Positions 2,953 to 9,680 of a stretch of 60,375 nucleotides of DNA are shown piece after piece. The translations under genes were made by a program, and so were the position numbers. The stretch's first letter is position 1. Every line of letters begins with the position of its first letter. The stretch covers positions 4,175 through 64,549 of the forward strand of contig JAOADM010000002.1 in assembly GCA_026417315.1 (NCBI GenBank), written 5' to 3'. This stretch comes from Limisphaera sp. GTDB lineage: Bacteria > Verrucomicrobiota > Verrucomicrobiia > Limisphaerales > Limisphaeraceae. Below the pieces are notes generated by a model that saw nothing but the letters and a program-made list of their open reading frames with translations, ran no database searches and was not told the origin of the DNA.

Positions 2953-2996
2953 CAAAACAAAGGTCCCTGCACGGTCTTTGCGACCGCGCAGGGACC
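2953..2996 (-). terminator. Intrinsic terminator of the candidate ncRNA
   Basis: Read on the minus strand: a 15-bp stem (GGTCCCTGCGCGGTC paired with GACCGTGCAGGGACC, one G-U pair), a four-base loop GCAA (with A), then TTTGTTTTG. Textbook Rho-independent terminator. No protein gene precedes it on that strand, so it must serve an RNA. Confidence 0.8.
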
Positions 2997-3819
2997 CATC
3001 GGGAGTGGGAGTGCGCCACGCTCTCTTTCCCGTGCCGGCATTAGGCGCCGCGTTGGGCTGCCGGCTTCCCGACGCTATTCTCCGCGGCAGGGCGGAGTTG
3101 TCGGCCTCATAGCAGGGCCGTCCCGGGCCTTGCGGCCCCGGGATTGTTGAGTGAGGCTTTTCAGCTCGCTTCAGCGAGTGGTTGCGCCACCCGCTTGCGA
3201 ACCAGGCCAAGACACGCTTGCGAGGCATCGCGTCTTGACCACTTGGCGCCGGGGCGGCCACCGCGGTTGGCGGTGCGTTGACCCGGTGCCACGGGTCTCG
3301 CCTCTTACCTCTCAGGTTGCCTTTCCCTCGCAAGGCAGCGGTGCCCTTTTCGACATCGCCACCCTTTCGGAAGGTTTTCACGGGAACTGCCCGGTCCCGT
3401 GGCCTCCCCGATGCGGACGCCCTTTTTGTCTCCCTTTCGGGAGTTTTGTTCGGGCGGCCTTGCGTCACCGTGGCCGCCAGGTTCGCCCGCACCGTGCTGG
3501 TACGCAGTAGCAACCGTGAACCCTCGGGGTAACTGCGATTCGTCCGAGGCCGAAGCCCACCCGGACTACTTGACTCGGCTCGGAGCGGCTTCCGGGACAC
3601 TCCTAACCGCCAAGCTCCTAGTTCGCAGTACCGGCGCGTGCGACCGCGCCAGAGGAGCCGGTGAATCCTGCCTCCACGCCAGTGCGGTTTCTCGCACCCG
3701 TAAGAGGGGTCGCTCCCACCAGCCGGGAACGACCTTTCCCCGGTCACCCGGGATTATCCTCGAGACGAACCCCGCGGCGTTGCCGCCGCAGCCGGTCGCC
3801 TCTGTTCTTTCAATGAACC
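2953..3819 (-). ncRNA. Candidate large structured non-coding RNA (~0.87 kb)
   Basis: No plausible protein on either strand, but the minus strand folds into a dense chain of short perfect hairpins, many with stable tetraloops: 3774-3789 (6 bp, GCAA), 3542-3566 (UUCG), 3430-3443 (CTCCC-GAAA-GGGAG), 3165-3178 (CTCGC-TGAA-GCGAG), 3122-3142 (GCAA) and 3080-3097 (CTCCGC/GCGGAG). The element ends in a strong intrinsic terminator at 2953-2996. A promoter-like TTGGAG-16-TAGAGT at 3853-3826 would start the transcript near 3819. Structure continues further upstream, for example an 11-bp stem at about 3952-3993, so the 5' end may lie as far as ~4090. It lacks the RNase P, tmRNA, SRP and group II domain V signatures that I know. 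Family unknown. It could also be a decayed intron or a scaffold RNA. Confidence 0.5.
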
Positions 3820-3825
3820 ACGGCT

Positions 3826-3853
3826 ACTCTACCACGGTTCACGGGATCTCCAA
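3826..3853 (-). promoter_or_regulatory. Candidate promoter for the structured RNA
   Basis: Minus strand TTGGAG (3853-3848), 16-bp spacer, TAGAGT (3831-3826). The same -10 hexamer occurs before the beta-helix gene at 6864. Weak -35; the transcript could also start upstream of this site. Confidence 0.35.
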
Positions 3854-4148
3854 GGGAATCTTATGCACCGACTTATTCACCGCTGCATCGCTGGTCGAAG
3901 AGCCGGGGAGGCGCTCAACGGGCCTTCTGGCCGTGCGTTTGCGCGCACGCGAAGAAGTTATTCACCGAACCGGCCGGGCGGGCCTTCGGCCACAGTGAAC
4001 AACTTTTTCCTGCGTCTTCCCGGCGTCGATCCCGCAAGTCCCGTCGGGGACTGGCGTTTCGGTCGAGCGGTTCGCGCGACCGGCTTTCCGCGGCACGTCC
4101 TCATCGGTTTCGCGTGCATTTTCCTCGGACTCGGCTCATTTTCGGGCC

Positions 4149-5129
4149 ATGCGAGTGATCGGCTTCCTGATCCTGGTCGTGCTGGACCTCGGGCTCCTTG
4201 TGCCCCGGGATTCCATGGCGCAGGATCCAAAGGGGCCCGCCCCGGAGGATCCCGTTTACCTGTTCAGTACCTTCCGCGAACCGGAACAGGACGGGCTGCG
4301 CTTTGCCTACAGCACGGATGCCCATCACTGGTCCAACCTGCCGGGCCTGTTTCTCGAGCCCCGCGTGGGCGGGGGCATCCTGCGCGATCCCAGCGTGTGC
4401 CGCGGTCCCGACGGTCGATGGCATGTGGTCTGGACCAGTGCCTGGCGGGGCGACCGTGGGTTTGGCTATGCACAGTCTCGAGACCTTGTCCACTGGTCGG
4501 ATCCCCGGTTCATCCCGGTGATGGAACACGAGCCGGACACGGTGAACGTTTGGGCGCCCGAGCTGTTCTACGATGCTCCGCGGAACCGTTTCATCATTGT
4601 CTGGGCTTCGACGATCCCGGGTCGATTCCCCGACCATCTGGAACCGCGAACCAACAATCATCGGCTGTACTACACCACCACAAAGGACTTTCAGGAGTTC
4701 ACGCCCACACAGCTTTTCTGGGACCCTGGTTACAGCGTCATCGATGCGCAGATCGTCTTCGTGGATCCCGGATATGTGTTGGTGCACAAGGACAACACCC
4801 GGCCCGAACGCCGCCTGCGGGTTGCGTTCGGTCAGTCTCCGCTCGGCCCCTGGCGTGACATTTCCCCTCCCCTGACCGCTCCCTTTACCGAGGGACCCTC
4901 GGTCCTCAAAGTGGGCGCGGAATGGATCGTTTATTACGAGGCGTATCGGGATCGGCAGTATCGTGCCCTCAAAACGCGCGACTTTCGTTCGTTCCGCGAT
5001 GCGACTTCCGAAATGACCTTTCCTCCCGGGCTCAAGCATGGCACGGCCTTTGTGGCGACGCGACGGGATCTGGAGCGTTTGCTCCAGGCCGGGGCACGGA
5101 AGGGTGAGCCGACGCCGACCCGGCGGTGA
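4149..5129 (+). CDS. Secreted GH43-like glycoside hydrolase
   Basis: 326 residues with a signal peptide (residues 1-24, ending near SMAQ). Five-bladed propeller family acting on arabinan, xylan or galactan side chains. The three acidic positions expected of GH43-like enzymes can be placed: D80 in LRDPSV (base), D199 in YSVIDAQI (pKa modulator) and E248 in FTEGPS (acid). The segment NVWAPELFYD and repeated WSD or WRD strands support the fold. The stop overlaps the start of the next gene by four bases (ATGA), so it is coupled to the GH28-like enzyme, which fits joint attack on pectin side chains and backbone. Exact substrate cannot be told. Confidence 0.8.
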   Translation: MRVIGFLILVVLDLGLLVPRDSMAQDPKGPAPEDPVYLFSTFREPEQDGLRFAYSTDAHHWSNLPGLFLEPRVGGGILRDPSVCRGPDGRWHVVWTSAWRGDRGFGYAQSRDLVHWSDPRFIPVMEHEPDTVNVWAPELFYDAPRNRFIIVWASTIPGRFPDHLEPRTNNHRLYYTTTKDFQEFTPTQLFWDPGYSVIDAQIVFVDPGYVLVHKDNTRPERRLRVAFGQSPLGPWRDISPPLTAPFTEGPSVLKVGAEWIVYYEAYRDRQYRALKTRDFRSFRDATSEMTFPPGLKHGTAFVATRRDLERLLQAGARKGEPTPTRR

Positions 5130-6682
5130 AGCCATGGGGGAGCCGCGGCGCTTGCGTGTCGGACTCGTCACCCTCCACACTGTCGCCCGTGACCGAACCG
5201 GTTGGTCCTGTAAAAACCGCCTCTCCACGATCGGGCGTCCTGCGACCGGCCTCTGCACGCGCCGCGCGCCGAGCCTGCTCGTTGTGGACCGCCCTGAAGG
5301 TGCTCGTGATCGGAGGGTGTCTTCAACCGGCGGCAGCCGCACCGGCGCACTGGGACGTTCGCGAGTTCGGTGCGCGCGGCGACGGCGTGACGTTGGACAC
5401 CGCGGCCATTCAGAACGCCATCGACGCCTGTGCGGAGGCGGGCGGCGGCGTGGTGCGCCTGCCGCCCGGACGGTATCTGAGCGGCACGATTCGCCTGCGC
5501 AGTCATGTCACGTTGGAACTGACCGCAGGTGCCCGCCTGGTCGGGACCACCAACCTCCACGCGTACGCCCATCCGAGTCCACCCTCCGACGCTCCCGAAG
5601 CCCGGTGGGGCAAATGGCACCGTGGTCTGATCATCGGGGAGAACATTCAAAACGTCACGCTGCGCGGCCCCGGGGTGGTGGACGGCAACCGCGTGTTCGA
5701 TCCGACCGGGGAGGAAAAGATGCGGGGGCCGCACGCCATCGTGCTCATGCACGCCCAGGATGTCACACTGGAGGATCTCACGATCGAAGACGCGGCCAAC
5801 TACGGCATGTTCTTCATGGTCAGCGACAACGTCACTCTGCGTCGGGTCCGTTTTGTGGGAGGCTGGGACGGGGTGCACTGGCGCGGCACGCCGGACCGTT
5901 GGTGCACAAATGTGAACCTCTTGAACTGCGAGTTTTACACGGGGGACGATGCCATCGCAGGCCGCTACTGGGCCGGAACCCGAATCATGCATTGCGTGAT
6001 CAATTCTTCCTGCAACGGCCTGCGGTTGATCGGGCCGGCGTACGATCTGACCGTGGCCGGCTGTTCGTTTTTCGGCCCCGGCCGACGACCGCATCTGACC
6101 TCCCGAGAGCAGCGTCGCACCAACATGCTCAGCGGGATCCTTCTGCAACCCGGGGCGTGGGATGCCACCCGCGGCCGGCTCGACGCCGTCTGGCTGGTGG
6201 ACAATACGATGCAACAAGTGGCCTCGCCGGTGACGTTGTGGACGAGACCGGGCAATTCCGTCGGCCGCGTGGTGGTGCAGGGTCTCGAAGCGATCGGCGT
6301 ATATCGCGCGGCGTTTTCCGCGGAACGCTGGGGGCCCGAAGCCATCGAGTCCGTGGTGTTCCGCGGGGTGCGCGCGGAGTTCACGGGGGGCGCTTCTGCG
6401 GACGCGGCGCGGCGTCCGGTGTCCTCGCCGGGCGTGGATGCGCGTCCCCTGCCGGCCTGGGGCTTCTACGCCCGCGGCGTTCAACGTGTGGAACTGGATG
6501 ACGTCCAGCTGAGGGCCCTTGTTCCGGATTCCCGGCCCGTTTTGCAGGCCGATCAAGTGGAGGAGCTGATTCTGGGCCGCTTCGACTTTTCCGATCCACC
6601 GGCAGGGGTGGAGCCGCTGGTGCTCAACGAGGTCAAACGCGTCCTCCGGCGCCGCATGCCGGCGGCCGGCGGGTCCGAGTGA
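5126..6682 (+). CDS. Secreted GH28-like (polygalacturonase family) beta-helix enzyme
   Basis: 518 residues by the ATGA start at 5126. The first ~50 residues are low-complexity and the true start may be one of the internal GTG or TTG codons before the hydrophobic segment WTALKVLVIGGCLQPAAAA. Opens with the pectin-lyase-fold signature VREFGARGDG, then AIQNAIDACAEAGGGVVRLPPG, and right-handed helix turns such as VTLEDLTIEDAANYGM and VTLRRVRF. Possible catalytic acids are D248 (GGWDGVHWRG) and D274/D275 (YTGDDAIAG). The usual GH28 GHG and RIK motifs are not present in canonical form, so it is a divergent member or an enzyme with another specificity. Operon partner of the GH43-like gene. Confidence 0.78.
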   Translation: MKPWGSRGACVSDSSPSTLSPVTEPVGPVKTASPRSGVLRPASARAARRACSLWTALKVLVIGGCLQPAAAAPAHWDVREFGARGDGVTLDTAAIQNAIDACAEAGGGVVRLPPGRYLSGTIRLRSHVTLELTAGARLVGTTNLHAYAHPSPPSDAPEARWGKWHRGLIIGENIQNVTLRGPGVVDGNRVFDPTGEEKMRGPHAIVLMHAQDVTLEDLTIEDAANYGMFFMVSDNVTLRRVRFVGGWDGVHWRGTPDRWCTNVNLLNCEFYTGDDAIAGRYWAGTRIMHCVINSSCNGLRLIGPAYDLTVAGCSFFGPGRRPHLTSREQRRTNMLSGILLQPGAWDATRGRLDAVWLVDNTMQQVASPVTLWTRPGNSVGRVVVQGLEAIGVYRAAFSAERWGPEAIESVVFRGVRAEFTGGASADAARRPVSSPGVDARPLPAWGFYARGVQRVELDDVQLRALVPDSRPVLQADQVEELILGRFDFSDPPAGVEPLVLNEVKRVLRRRMPAAGGSE

Positions 6683-6841
6683 CCCGAGGTGTCCTGCCGG
6701 ACGAGGCGGCCGGCCCGGGCCCCGGTGGAGAAAAAGGCCCGCTCGATTGACGCGGGGTTTGCACCGGTTCGGGCGCCCTTTTCCCCGAGAGTGTCGCCCG
6801 GCCTTCCCGGGTTCGTCCCCAAAAGAGACCGTGGCTCTCAC

Positions 6842-6869
6842 TTGCCCCGGAAGGATCGTGTGTTAGAGT
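6842..6869 (+). promoter_or_regulatory. Promoter of the beta-helix gene
   Basis: TTGCCC (6842-6847), 16-bp spacer, TAGAGT (6864-6869). The ATG at 6882 lies 12 bases after the -10, so the leader would be very short. Same form as the hemB, metY and hypC promoters. Confidence 0.45.
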
Positions 6870-6881
6870 CCCGCCAACGTC

Positions 6882-9680
6882 ATGCAAAGAGAGGTTTGGG
6901 AGGTGCGAGCCTGCAGACTTTTGCGGGGGATCGTCGCTGCCTGTGTGACCGGGTGTCTGATCCCTGCGACGCTTTCCGCTGCCGTCTTCACGGTCACAAC
7001 CACCGCCGACAGCGGCCCTGGAAGCCTGCGCCAGGCCATTCTGGATGCCGAGGCAACCCCCGGTCCGGACACGGTGCGCTTTCAACTCGCCGGGGCCGGC
7101 CCGTTCACCCTCGGCCTGCAGAGTCCGTTGCCGGCCATTCGCGAGCCCCTGATCCTGGACGGCTCGAGCCAGCCCGGCTACAGCGGGACGCCGCTCATCG
7201 AGCTGAACGGTTCGGCGGCCGGAGCCAACGCCCATGGGCTTTACCTCCTGACCTCCAACAGCGTGATCCGGGCACTGTGCATCAACCGCTTCAGCGGCGA
7301 CGGGATCCGCATCGAATTCGGGGGCAGCAATGTGGTGGAGGGCTGTTACATCGGGGTGACGCCCGACGGCCGTGCCGCTGCCCCCAACGCGCAGGGCGGC
7401 GTCACCGTACGCACGTCGGGCAACCGCATCGGCGGCACCCAACCGCATCAACGCAATGTCATCGCCGGAGGCAACCAGGGCGGCATCTTCCTGCTGGACG
7501 CACCGGCCTCGGGCAACGTAATCCAGGGCAATTACATTGGCGTGGACGCCACTGGGACCAATGCCCTCGGCAACGCGCAAAACGGGATTCTCATTTCGGC
7601 CGCTGCGGGCAACCGGGTGGGCGGCCGCGAGCCCGGGGCGGGCAACGTGCTGTCCGGGAACGGACAGGCGGGCGTTTATCTGATGGGCCCGGCGGCGCTG
7701 TTCAACCGGATCGAGGGCAATCTCATTGGTCCCGATGCCACCGGACGCCGCGCGCTTGGCAACCTGCACGGCGTGGTGATCCTGGGTGGAGTCAGCAACC
7801 GAATCGGCGGACTGGAGGCCGGCTCGGGCAACGTGATTTCCGGAAACCGGTCCAACGGCGTTCACATCACGATCGGCTTTGGCGGCGGCGGATCGTTCAA
7901 CGAGGTGTTGGGCAACCGCATCGGCACCGACATTTCCGGGACCAACGGCCTGCCCAATCGCGGCCGTGGCCTGGAAATCCATCGGGCTTCGTTCAACCGG
8001 GTGGGCCCGGGAAATGTCATTTCAGCCAACGCGCTGAGCGGGATCGCAATCACCGGGACCGGTGCCGTCTCCAACGTGATTGCCGGGAATTTCATTGGAA
8101 CGGACGCCACGGGACTGGCGCCGCTGGGCAACCAGTTCGATGGCGTGCTGCTGCAAGGGGTTTCCTCCAACCTCGTGGGGGGCACGGTTGCCGCGGATCG
8201 CAACGTGATTTCCGGCAATGCCGCCTATGGCGTGTATGTGAACGGCGCCGCAGCCCAGGGCAACCGCATCCAGGGCAATTTCATCGGCACTGACGTCCAG
8301 GGACGCCAGCCCCTGCCCAACGGGTTGTCCGGGATTCGCGTGGACGGCCCCGCCAACCTCGTTGGGGGCGAAGTGGCGGGCGCCGGCAATGTCATCAGTG
8401 GCAACCTCGAAAACGGCGTGTTTCTGGTGGAGCGCAGTGCCTCCAACAACGTGGTCGCGGGAAACATCATCGGGCTGGACGCCTCGGGCCACACGACCCT
8501 GGGCAATCAGGTGGCCGGCATCGGCATCACCAACGCCCCGGACAACCGCATCGGAGGCGGCATTCCCGAGGCGCGCAACTGGATTTCGGCGAATGCCGAC
8601 AGCGGCATCTATCTCCAGGGGCCGTGGGCCACCCGCAACCGGATCCTCGGCAATTACATTGGCACCGATCGCACGGGCATGTTGGCCCGCGGCAATGTCC
8701 GAGACGGGATCTCGGGATATGATGCACCCACCAACCATGTGGGCGGCATCGCGGCCGGTGAAGGCAACGTTATTTCGGGCAACGGATGGAATGGCCTTTA
8801 CCTGACGGGGCCCGGCACGCGCGGCTGGGTGATCCAGGGAAACTACATTGGCGTGCAGGCCGACGGGTGGAGCCCGCTCGGCAACACCTATCACAACGTG
8901 GAGTTTCTCACCAACAGCTCCCACCACCTCATCGGCGGCCCCGCTCCGGAAAGTTACAACCGCATCGGCTGGGCCCGGAGCAGCGGTTGGGACGGCATCC
9001 GCATCCGCAGCGGCTCCACCAATGTCACTGTGTTGGGCAATAACATCTTCAGCAACGGTGGCACGGCCCCCAATGGATTGGGCATCGACCTCGGCAACGA
9101 CGGCGTGACGGCCAACGATGCGTGCGACTCCGACGGTGGGGCTAATTTCCAGCAGAACTTTCCCGTGTTGACCCAGGCGGTCGCCTCGGCCACAACGCTC
9201 GCCGTGCGGGGCTGGCTCGAAAGTGTCGCCGGCCGGACTTACACCCTGTACTTCTACGCCCACCCCACCAACGAACCCTCGAGCCACGGCGAGGGGATGT
9301 TCCCTCTGGGGCAGGCAGTGGTCACCACGGCGGGGAATTGTCGCGGCGTGTTTTCCGTCACCCTGCCGGTGTCCGTCCCAACGGGCATGTGGTTGACCGC
9401 CACCGCCACCGATGCCCAGGGGCACACTTCCGAATTCTCCCAGGCGATTCCCGTGCAGTCTGCGCCGCGCGTGGAGGTCCGCCGTTTACGGGCCTCCGGA
9501 GAGCTGGAGTTGCGGTGGTCGGCGGTCCCGGCCGGCTTTGTGCTCCAGCAGACCACCAATTTGACGCCTCCGGTGATCTGGTGGCCGGTCACCAACGCAC
9601 CCGCCTTGCAGGACGCCACCTACCGAGTCGTCCTGCCGGCCCTGCCGTATCCGCAGTTCTTCCGACTGGTCCTGCCGTAA
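6882..9680 (+). CDS. Secreted right-handed parallel beta-helix repeat protein
   Basis: 932 residues. Signal peptide is followed by a CSLREA-like opening (FTVTTTADSGPGSLRQAI), then about thirteen imperfect repeats of roughly 48 residues built on GNVIQGNYIGVDATGT and NRIGG, typical of NosD or pectate-lyase-like helices. The tail is an Fn3-like domain (about residues 750-930) ending in the strand FFRLVLP, seen on many verrucomicrobial exported proteins. No catalytic residues can be assigned; adhesive or glycan-binding roles are possible. A GTG at 6903 preceded by AGAGAGG is an alternative start that shortens the signal peptide. It follows the two pectin-type enzymes by 199 bases, with its own promoter. 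Confidence 0.8.
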   Translation: MQREVWEVRACRLLRGIVAACVTGCLIPATLSAAVFTVTTTADSGPGSLRQAILDAEATPGPDTVRFQLAGAGPFTLGLQSPLPAIREPLILDGSSQPGYSGTPLIELNGSAAGANAHGLYLLTSNSVIRALCINRFSGDGIRIEFGGSNVVEGCYIGVTPDGRAAAPNAQGGVTVRTSGNRIGGTQPHQRNVIAGGNQGGIFLLDAPASGNVIQGNYIGVDATGTNALGNAQNGILISAAAGNRVGGREPGAGNVLSGNGQAGVYLMGPAALFNRIEGNLIGPDATGRRALGNLHGVVILGGVSNRIGGLEAGSGNVISGNRSNGVHITIGFGGGGSFNEVLGNRIGTDISGTNGLPNRGRGLEIHRASFNRVGPGNVISANALSGIAITGTGAVSNVIAGNFIGTDATGLAPLGNQFDGVLLQGVSSNLVGGTVAADRNVISGNAAYGVYVNGAAAQGNRIQGNFIGTDVQGRQPLPNGLSGIRVDGPANLVGGEVAGAGNVISGNLENGVFLVERSASNNVVAGNIIGLDASGHTTLGNQVAGIGITNAPDNRIGGGIPEARNWISANADSGIYLQGPWATRNRILGNYIGTDRTGMLARGNVRDGISGYDAPTNHVGGIAAGEGNVISGNGWNGLYLTGPGTRGWVIQGNYIGVQADGWSPLGNTYHNVEFLTNSSHHLIGGPAPESYNRIGWARSSGWDGIRIRSGSTNVTVLGNNIFSNGGTAPNGLGIDLGNDGVTANDACDSDGGANFQQNFPVLTQAVASATTLAVRGWLESVAGRTYTLYFYAHPTNEPSSHGEGMFPLGQAVVTTAGNCRGVFSVTLPVSVPTGMWLTATATDAQGHTSEFSQAIPVQSAPRVEVRRLRASGELELRWSAVPAGFVLQQTTNLTPPVIWWPVTNAPALQDATYRVVLPALPYPQFFRLVLP

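Follow-up and report, generated by a model that had tools for sequence, protein, structure and literature searches.

The locus

The window, the whole stretch of 60,375 nucleotides of Limisphaera sp. (contig JAOADM010000002.1) that we analysed, contains a complete, single gene of the MISL RNA, an already catalogued large bacterial RNA, on its minus strand. In a cmscan of the window against 4,227 Rfam families, positions 3759-3008 (-) matched RF03079 (MISL RNA) with 572.6 bits (E 3e-173; the gathering score is 274.6 bits). This was the sole strong match among all the families, and it spans the model from end to end (positions 1-751 of 751, no truncation). The RNA agrees with the family in size and, over its full length, in sequence and secondary structure: 170 consensus pairs of the Rfam structure map onto 3759-3008, far beyond chance, and the alignment flags few non-standard pairs. 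The hairpin-rich minus-strand element of the original prediction is thus borne out, and the Infernal search of Rfam proposed there settles its identity as a known family. The gene is present in one copy in its own genome. The main features of the unit are as follows.

3008..3759, minus strand: MISL RNA body, RF03079 model 1-751 (cmscan, 572.6 bits; single copy)
2955..3819, minus strand: predicted full MISL transcript, about 865 nt (start placed from the -10 position and the conserved leader, end from the terminator)
3826..3853, minus strand: putative promoter TTGGAG-16-TAGAGT (from the sequence; -10-like TAnnnT in homologs)
2953..2996, minus strand: intrinsic terminator (10-bp covarying stem, then a U-rich run)

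A Pfam scan identified VanZ-like and GH43-like genes as the neighbours. Genes for GH43-like, GH28/pectate-lyase-like and beta-helix proteins adjoin the RNA at 4149-9680 (+). The opposite flank holds the VanZ-like gene, which a GC-rich palindromic spacer of about 580 nt (2370-2950), with no Rfam match, separates from the terminator.

A predicted transcription unit of its own

The MISL transcript in all probability runs from about 3819 to 2955, some 865 nt, because a terminator lies just past the end of the model and a conserved leader block lies next to the promoter. The terminator stem (2995-2986/2963-2972, 10 bp) covaries across 99 homologs, with double changes at 8 pairs, and nearly all of these loci have an intrinsic terminator 3' of the RNA, 10-20 nt past the end of the model in RNA orientation. 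At the other end, homologs carry the block GUUC[ACU]UUGA[AUC]AGAAC about 59 nt 5' of the model start, directly after the promoter, and in order-level homologs a -10-like TAnnnT stands immediately 5' of this leader. Both the terminator and the promoter of the original prediction were therefore real or correctly read, the latter in its letters, its position and the conserved leader directly downstream of it in homologs. Of the minus-strand noncoding RNA of 0.87-1.1 kb with its own promoter and terminator, the version of about 0.87 kb stands, and the extension to 4090, which counted DnaA-box-like sites of the DNA among the RNA stems, does not.

A frame of 282 codons is open in the window, and reads as a GC-rich by-product because just one of 101 homologs keeps it open. 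We rejected a protein-coding reading on this lack of conservation, in agreement with the earlier statement that the element holds no protein-like frame.

Structure beyond the Rfam model

Relative to the Rfam model, the window and its homologs add a 5' leader domain of about 60 nt, extra pseudoknots, the terminator and DnaA-box-like promoter sites. We searched a covariation alignment of 99 homologs (Neff 67) for stacks of covarying pairs outside the Rfam structure line, relative to which helices are here called extra. Compensatory changes back seven such helices, which are mainly pseudoknots or long-range contacts. The seven were tested with a pair counter on a separate alignment of 45 sequences, a subset of the homologs, and independent both-sided changes were counted on a tree built without the helix columns. 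The predicted helices and the leader elements are listed here, all on the minus strand.

3315..3515, minus strand: long-range helix, GGUUGC 3515-3510 with GCAACC 3315-3320 (97.4% paired; 28 independent both-sided changes)
3218..3333, minus strand: pseudoknot, UUGCGA 3333-3328 with the hairpin loop UCGCAA 3218-3223 (94.7% paired; 21 changes)
3623..3643, minus strand: pseudoknot, UCGCA 3643-3639 with UGCGA 3623-3627 (96.3% paired; 17 independent both-sided changes)
3497..3722, minus strand: pseudoknot, CUGGU 3722-3718 with ACCAG 3497-3501 (99.1% paired; 12 independent both-sided changes)
3073..3114, minus strand: pseudoknot, UGCUA 3114-3110 with UAGCG 3073-3077 (100% paired; 11 independent both-sided changes)
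3552..3592, minus strand: possible loop-loop contact, GAAGC 3592-3588 with GCUUC 3552-3556 (91.6% paired; 2 both-sided changes)
3804..3818, minus strand: leader element GUUCAUUGAAAGAAC, boxA-like, whose loop UGA[A] pairs with 3665-3662
3662..3665, minus strand: UUCA, pseudoknot partner of the leader loop (leader loop 3812/3662; 6 independent both-sided changes)
3762..3802, minus strand: P0 leader helix, GAGGCGA/UCGUCUC, 3802-3796/3762-3768 (outside the Rfam model; covariation)

In the 45-sequence alignment, the 36 extra pairs are paired in 96.7% of cells and 25 of them show both-sided changes, whereas controls with slid partners reach 30-40% pairing. The covariation score of these pairs is 0.331 against 0.163 in shuffles, and none of 500 shuffles scored as high. 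Independent both-sided changes number 6 to 28 per helix, except for the contact 3592/3552, which has 2 and is possibly real, the weakest of the seven. Given this evidence we have little doubt about the predicted pseudoknot network. P0 behaves as a variable but persistent leader helix: 57 distinct helices occupy the same place, a helix score of at least 5 is reached in 90% of cases against 22% of shuffles, and covariation is seen at 3801/3763 and 3799/3765. The leader-body pairing (3809/3665) shows 6 independent compensatory changes, and the 5' leader is therefore part of the folded RNA. The covariance analysis of relatives that had been proposed thus returned compensatory changes in the RNA body, the leader and the terminator.

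The leader and its likeness to boxA

The leader element resembles the boxA of rRNA operons, which recruits NusB/NusE (PMC10250234, PMC4807359). In the same genomes or in close relatives, rRNA leaders contain TGCTCTTTGAAAG, GTTCTTTGAGAG, GATCTTTGATAA and similar sequences. A matrix built from nine such leaders scores 11 bits or more in 94% of 101 MISL leaders and in 1.6% of simulated leaders, a comparison that was made post hoc, on related loci, and in which the loop pairing accounts for part of the conservation. Only nine genomes could be compared because searches by family, by DNA and by primer site did not detect 16S rRNA in most complete genomes of the family f61 (G075, G156, G148, G332 and others), where it is probably masked in the copies that were searched. 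In both settings, an untranslated stable RNA has a UCUUUGA-type motif shortly 3' of its promoter. The MISL motif differs from the rRNA boxA in that it also pairs with the RNA body, has no rRNA downstream and, in two large clades, has A or C at a position where the rRNA boxA has T; the copy in the window has a letter other than T at one position.

These observations allow two readings of nearly equal standing. Since the motif was found post hoc in related loci and owes some of its conservation to the loop pairing, we give a functional boxA antitermination in the MISL leader about an even chance. The block could instead be purely structural, a hairpin plus a loop pairing, with a boxA likeness that arose by chance and brings no antitermination. 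We rate this slightly below an even chance: compensatory changes back the pairing of the loop with 3665-3662, GUUC/GAAC can form in most members, and the two clades depart from boxA at one position, but so few simulated leaders attain the boxA score, and distant members retain GATCTTTGACAGAA or GCTCTTTGACAG, close to the rRNA boxA of the phylum, even where they lack a good stem. At another locus (L024), the upstream region has the boxA-like hairpin in two consecutive copies (GTTCTTCGAAAGAGGAACGGGTTCATTGAAAGAAC).

DnaA-box-like sites upstream of the promoter

Four candidate DnaA-binding sites lie upstream of the putative promoter.

3861..3869, plus strand: DnaA-box-like site TTATGCACC (pattern match; in tandem with the box at 3873-3881)
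3873..3881, plus strand: DnaA-box-like site TTATTCACC (pattern match; same variant upstream of dnaA)
3958..3966, plus strand: DnaA-box-like site TTATTCACC (pattern match)
3994..4002, minus strand: weaker DnaA-like site TTGTTCACT (arm of the AAGTTGTTCAC/GTGAATAACTT inverted repeat)

The pattern TT[AG]TNCAC[AC] is matched at 3861-3869, at 3873-3881 and by one arm of the inverted repeat at 3993-3952; it was picked after the sequences had been seen and is the TTATNCACA consensus of textbooks (PMC4447404) with two positions loosened. The AAGTTGTTCAC/GTGAATAACTT pair had been described as one of several further RNA stems upstream, a reading that we abandon: the listed stems lie upstream of the promoter, and this pair corresponds to DnaA-box-like sites in the DNA. 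Within the 260 nt ahead of the leader, every group has one site or more in 89-95% of its MISL loci, against 2-4% for simulated sequence, and two or more in 60-88%, against 0 of 5,320 background genomic windows. A search of the window's own draft genome with the pattern of the tandem TTATGCACC-N3-TTATTCACC returned this pair and no other, and 7 nt separate the nearest upstream box from the -35 (3861 versus 3853). Most of the 14 genomes checked also carry the same box variant ahead of dnaA, in many cases no more than about 130 nt from where the DnaA match begins.

Promoters regulated by DnaA include those of sda in Bacillus subtilis and of dnaA itself. The MISL promoter resembles them by its nearby TTATNCAC-type candidate boxes, in the variant found upstream of dnaA, and differs from them in that the target would be a noncoding RNA. 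DnaA boxes (TTATNCACA) also act in transcription control outside oriC (PMC4447404). Control of the MISL promoter by DnaA through the upstream candidate boxes is, in our view, fairly probable.

A DnaA reservoir or titration site, comparable to datA of Escherichia coli and placed beside MISL by chance, could account for the boxes with no regulatory role. They are indeed clustered and rare elsewhere in the sampled genomes, the tandem pair occurs once in its own draft genome, and datA likewise lies near stable-RNA genes. Yet all sampled lineages retain the boxes at the MISL promoter while other neighbours vary, and the nearest one is only 7 nt from the -35, which makes a chance association unlikely. 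Far less probable still is that the cluster is a chromosomal origin and MISL an oriC-associated transcript. Clusters of TTATNCACA-type boxes typify oriC (PMC4447404), but dnaA is not adjacent to MISL, and MISL lies away from the minus-to-plus switch of GC skew in the four complete genomes with readable skew among the six sampled (G075, G156, G332 and G376, the skew of G148 and G185 being noisy). MISL as a marker of oriC was rejected on this sampling.

Neighbouring genes and distribution

MISL loci were found in 27 of 58 relatives and in 31 of 388 genomes of the phylum. At least 119 stretches occur in named genomes and, among the matches listed, every title with a taxon name points to Verrucomicrobiota. 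The culturable Haloferula rosea is one of the species with the core motif. MISL is missing from roughly half of the order, or too diverged there for detection. The closest relative, of the genus of the window (L026 in G001), has a strongly diverged copy that scores 243 bits, below the gathering score; its core helix is rebuilt, and its leader, promoter and terminator are intact. Two genomes have two MISL genes each (G387, C44 and C5; G212, C5 and C33). Several loci (L148, L179, L204, L236 and similar ones) have the exact core motif, and a recognisable 5' start or leader was not found within reach; these are perhaps a diverged or expanded subtype.

Neighbours differ between families, and by this comparison MISL would form an independent transcription unit. 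In several families of the order, a cysK-like gene and, behind it, a rho-like one (termination factor) lie downstream and a peptidase-like gene upstream, whereas in f61 the neighbours are typA and an HrpB-like helicase gene (the names cysK, rho, typA and HrpB were read by eye from the sequences; the Pfam scan covered the neighbours in the window). The downstream order cysK-like then rho-like was seen at L058, L062, L063, L067 and L068. A function deduced from neighbours was discarded, as no neighbouring gene is common across families.

MISL shares its size class with large RNAs borne by phages or plasmids, such as GOLLD and ROOL, and a 2.3-kb contig filed as viral (L266, IMGVR_UViG_3300034676_001488) contains the MISL core motif. 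This contig is possibly a cellular fragment. A phage or plasmid origin is very improbable: MISL was not found in 50,697 phage records and 72,556 plasmid records, and different ordinary chromosomal genes flank it in different families.

Other large RNAs

OLE, ROOL and GOLLD resemble MISL as large, highly structured bacterial RNAs of the same size class and of poorly known function, and form homo-oligomers in cryo-EM (PMC12286853). They are separate Rfam families and do not match here: a permissive Rfam scan (E<=1) of the stretch alone gave no GOLLD or ROOL match and no other noteworthy family. GOLLD and ROOL are associated with phages or prophages, whereas MISL is chromosomal with variable neighbours.

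A large, GC-rich, structured RNA might also suggest RNase P, tmRNA, a decayed group I/II intron or an omegaRNA scaffold. The original prediction had set the first two aside, rightly, and had kept intron and omegaRNA as alternatives, which gain no support; all of them can be dismissed, for none matches the stretch at E<=1 among all Rfam families (RF00010 and RF00023 included), RNase P and tmRNA are both located elsewhere in the same genome, and the nearest neighbours are VanZ-like and GH43-like genes, with no mobile-element protein found beside the RNA. The proposal of a new, uncatalogued class, which size and hairpin richness had invited, is likewise refuted by the full-length RF03079 match some 300 bits above the gathering score.

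Proposed working and meaning

The best explanation overall, which we consider likely, is an autonomous MISL transcription unit, tuned by DnaA, that yields a folded leader and body acting in trans. Transcription of a sigma-70 type would start at about 3819, and DnaA bound upstream of the -35 would tune it, so that output would follow replication initiation or growth. The boxA-like leader may help RNA polymerase to get across about 0.9 kb of highly structured, untranslated RNA and would afterwards dock onto the RNA body. The whole would fold into a single compact pseudoknotted particle ending at the intrinsic terminator, and act as a structural RNA, be it an RNP scaffold, an RNA-only particle or a ribozyme. 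Action in trans is itself very likely, because the families have no conserved neighbour gene in common.

The RNA family was already known, probably from a description by Weinberg in 2017, and we found no functional study of MISL in the open literature searched. The parts of specialist interest are the link to DnaA and the completed architecture. Constructs cut at the Rfam boundaries would miss the leader domain and with it a pairing to the RNA body. The clusters of DnaA-box-like sites offer a concrete and testable hint on how MISL is controlled, and with a likely 5' end about 60 nt upstream of the model they open its function to specific experiments. To our knowledge, no large structured bacterial noncoding RNA has been shown to be directly wired to the initiator protein. 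As a tentative and rather doubtful extension, MISL may be a replication-coupled RNA machine, its synthesis set by DnaA and carried through by antitermination in the style of rRNA, possibly with feedback on chromosome replication or growth.
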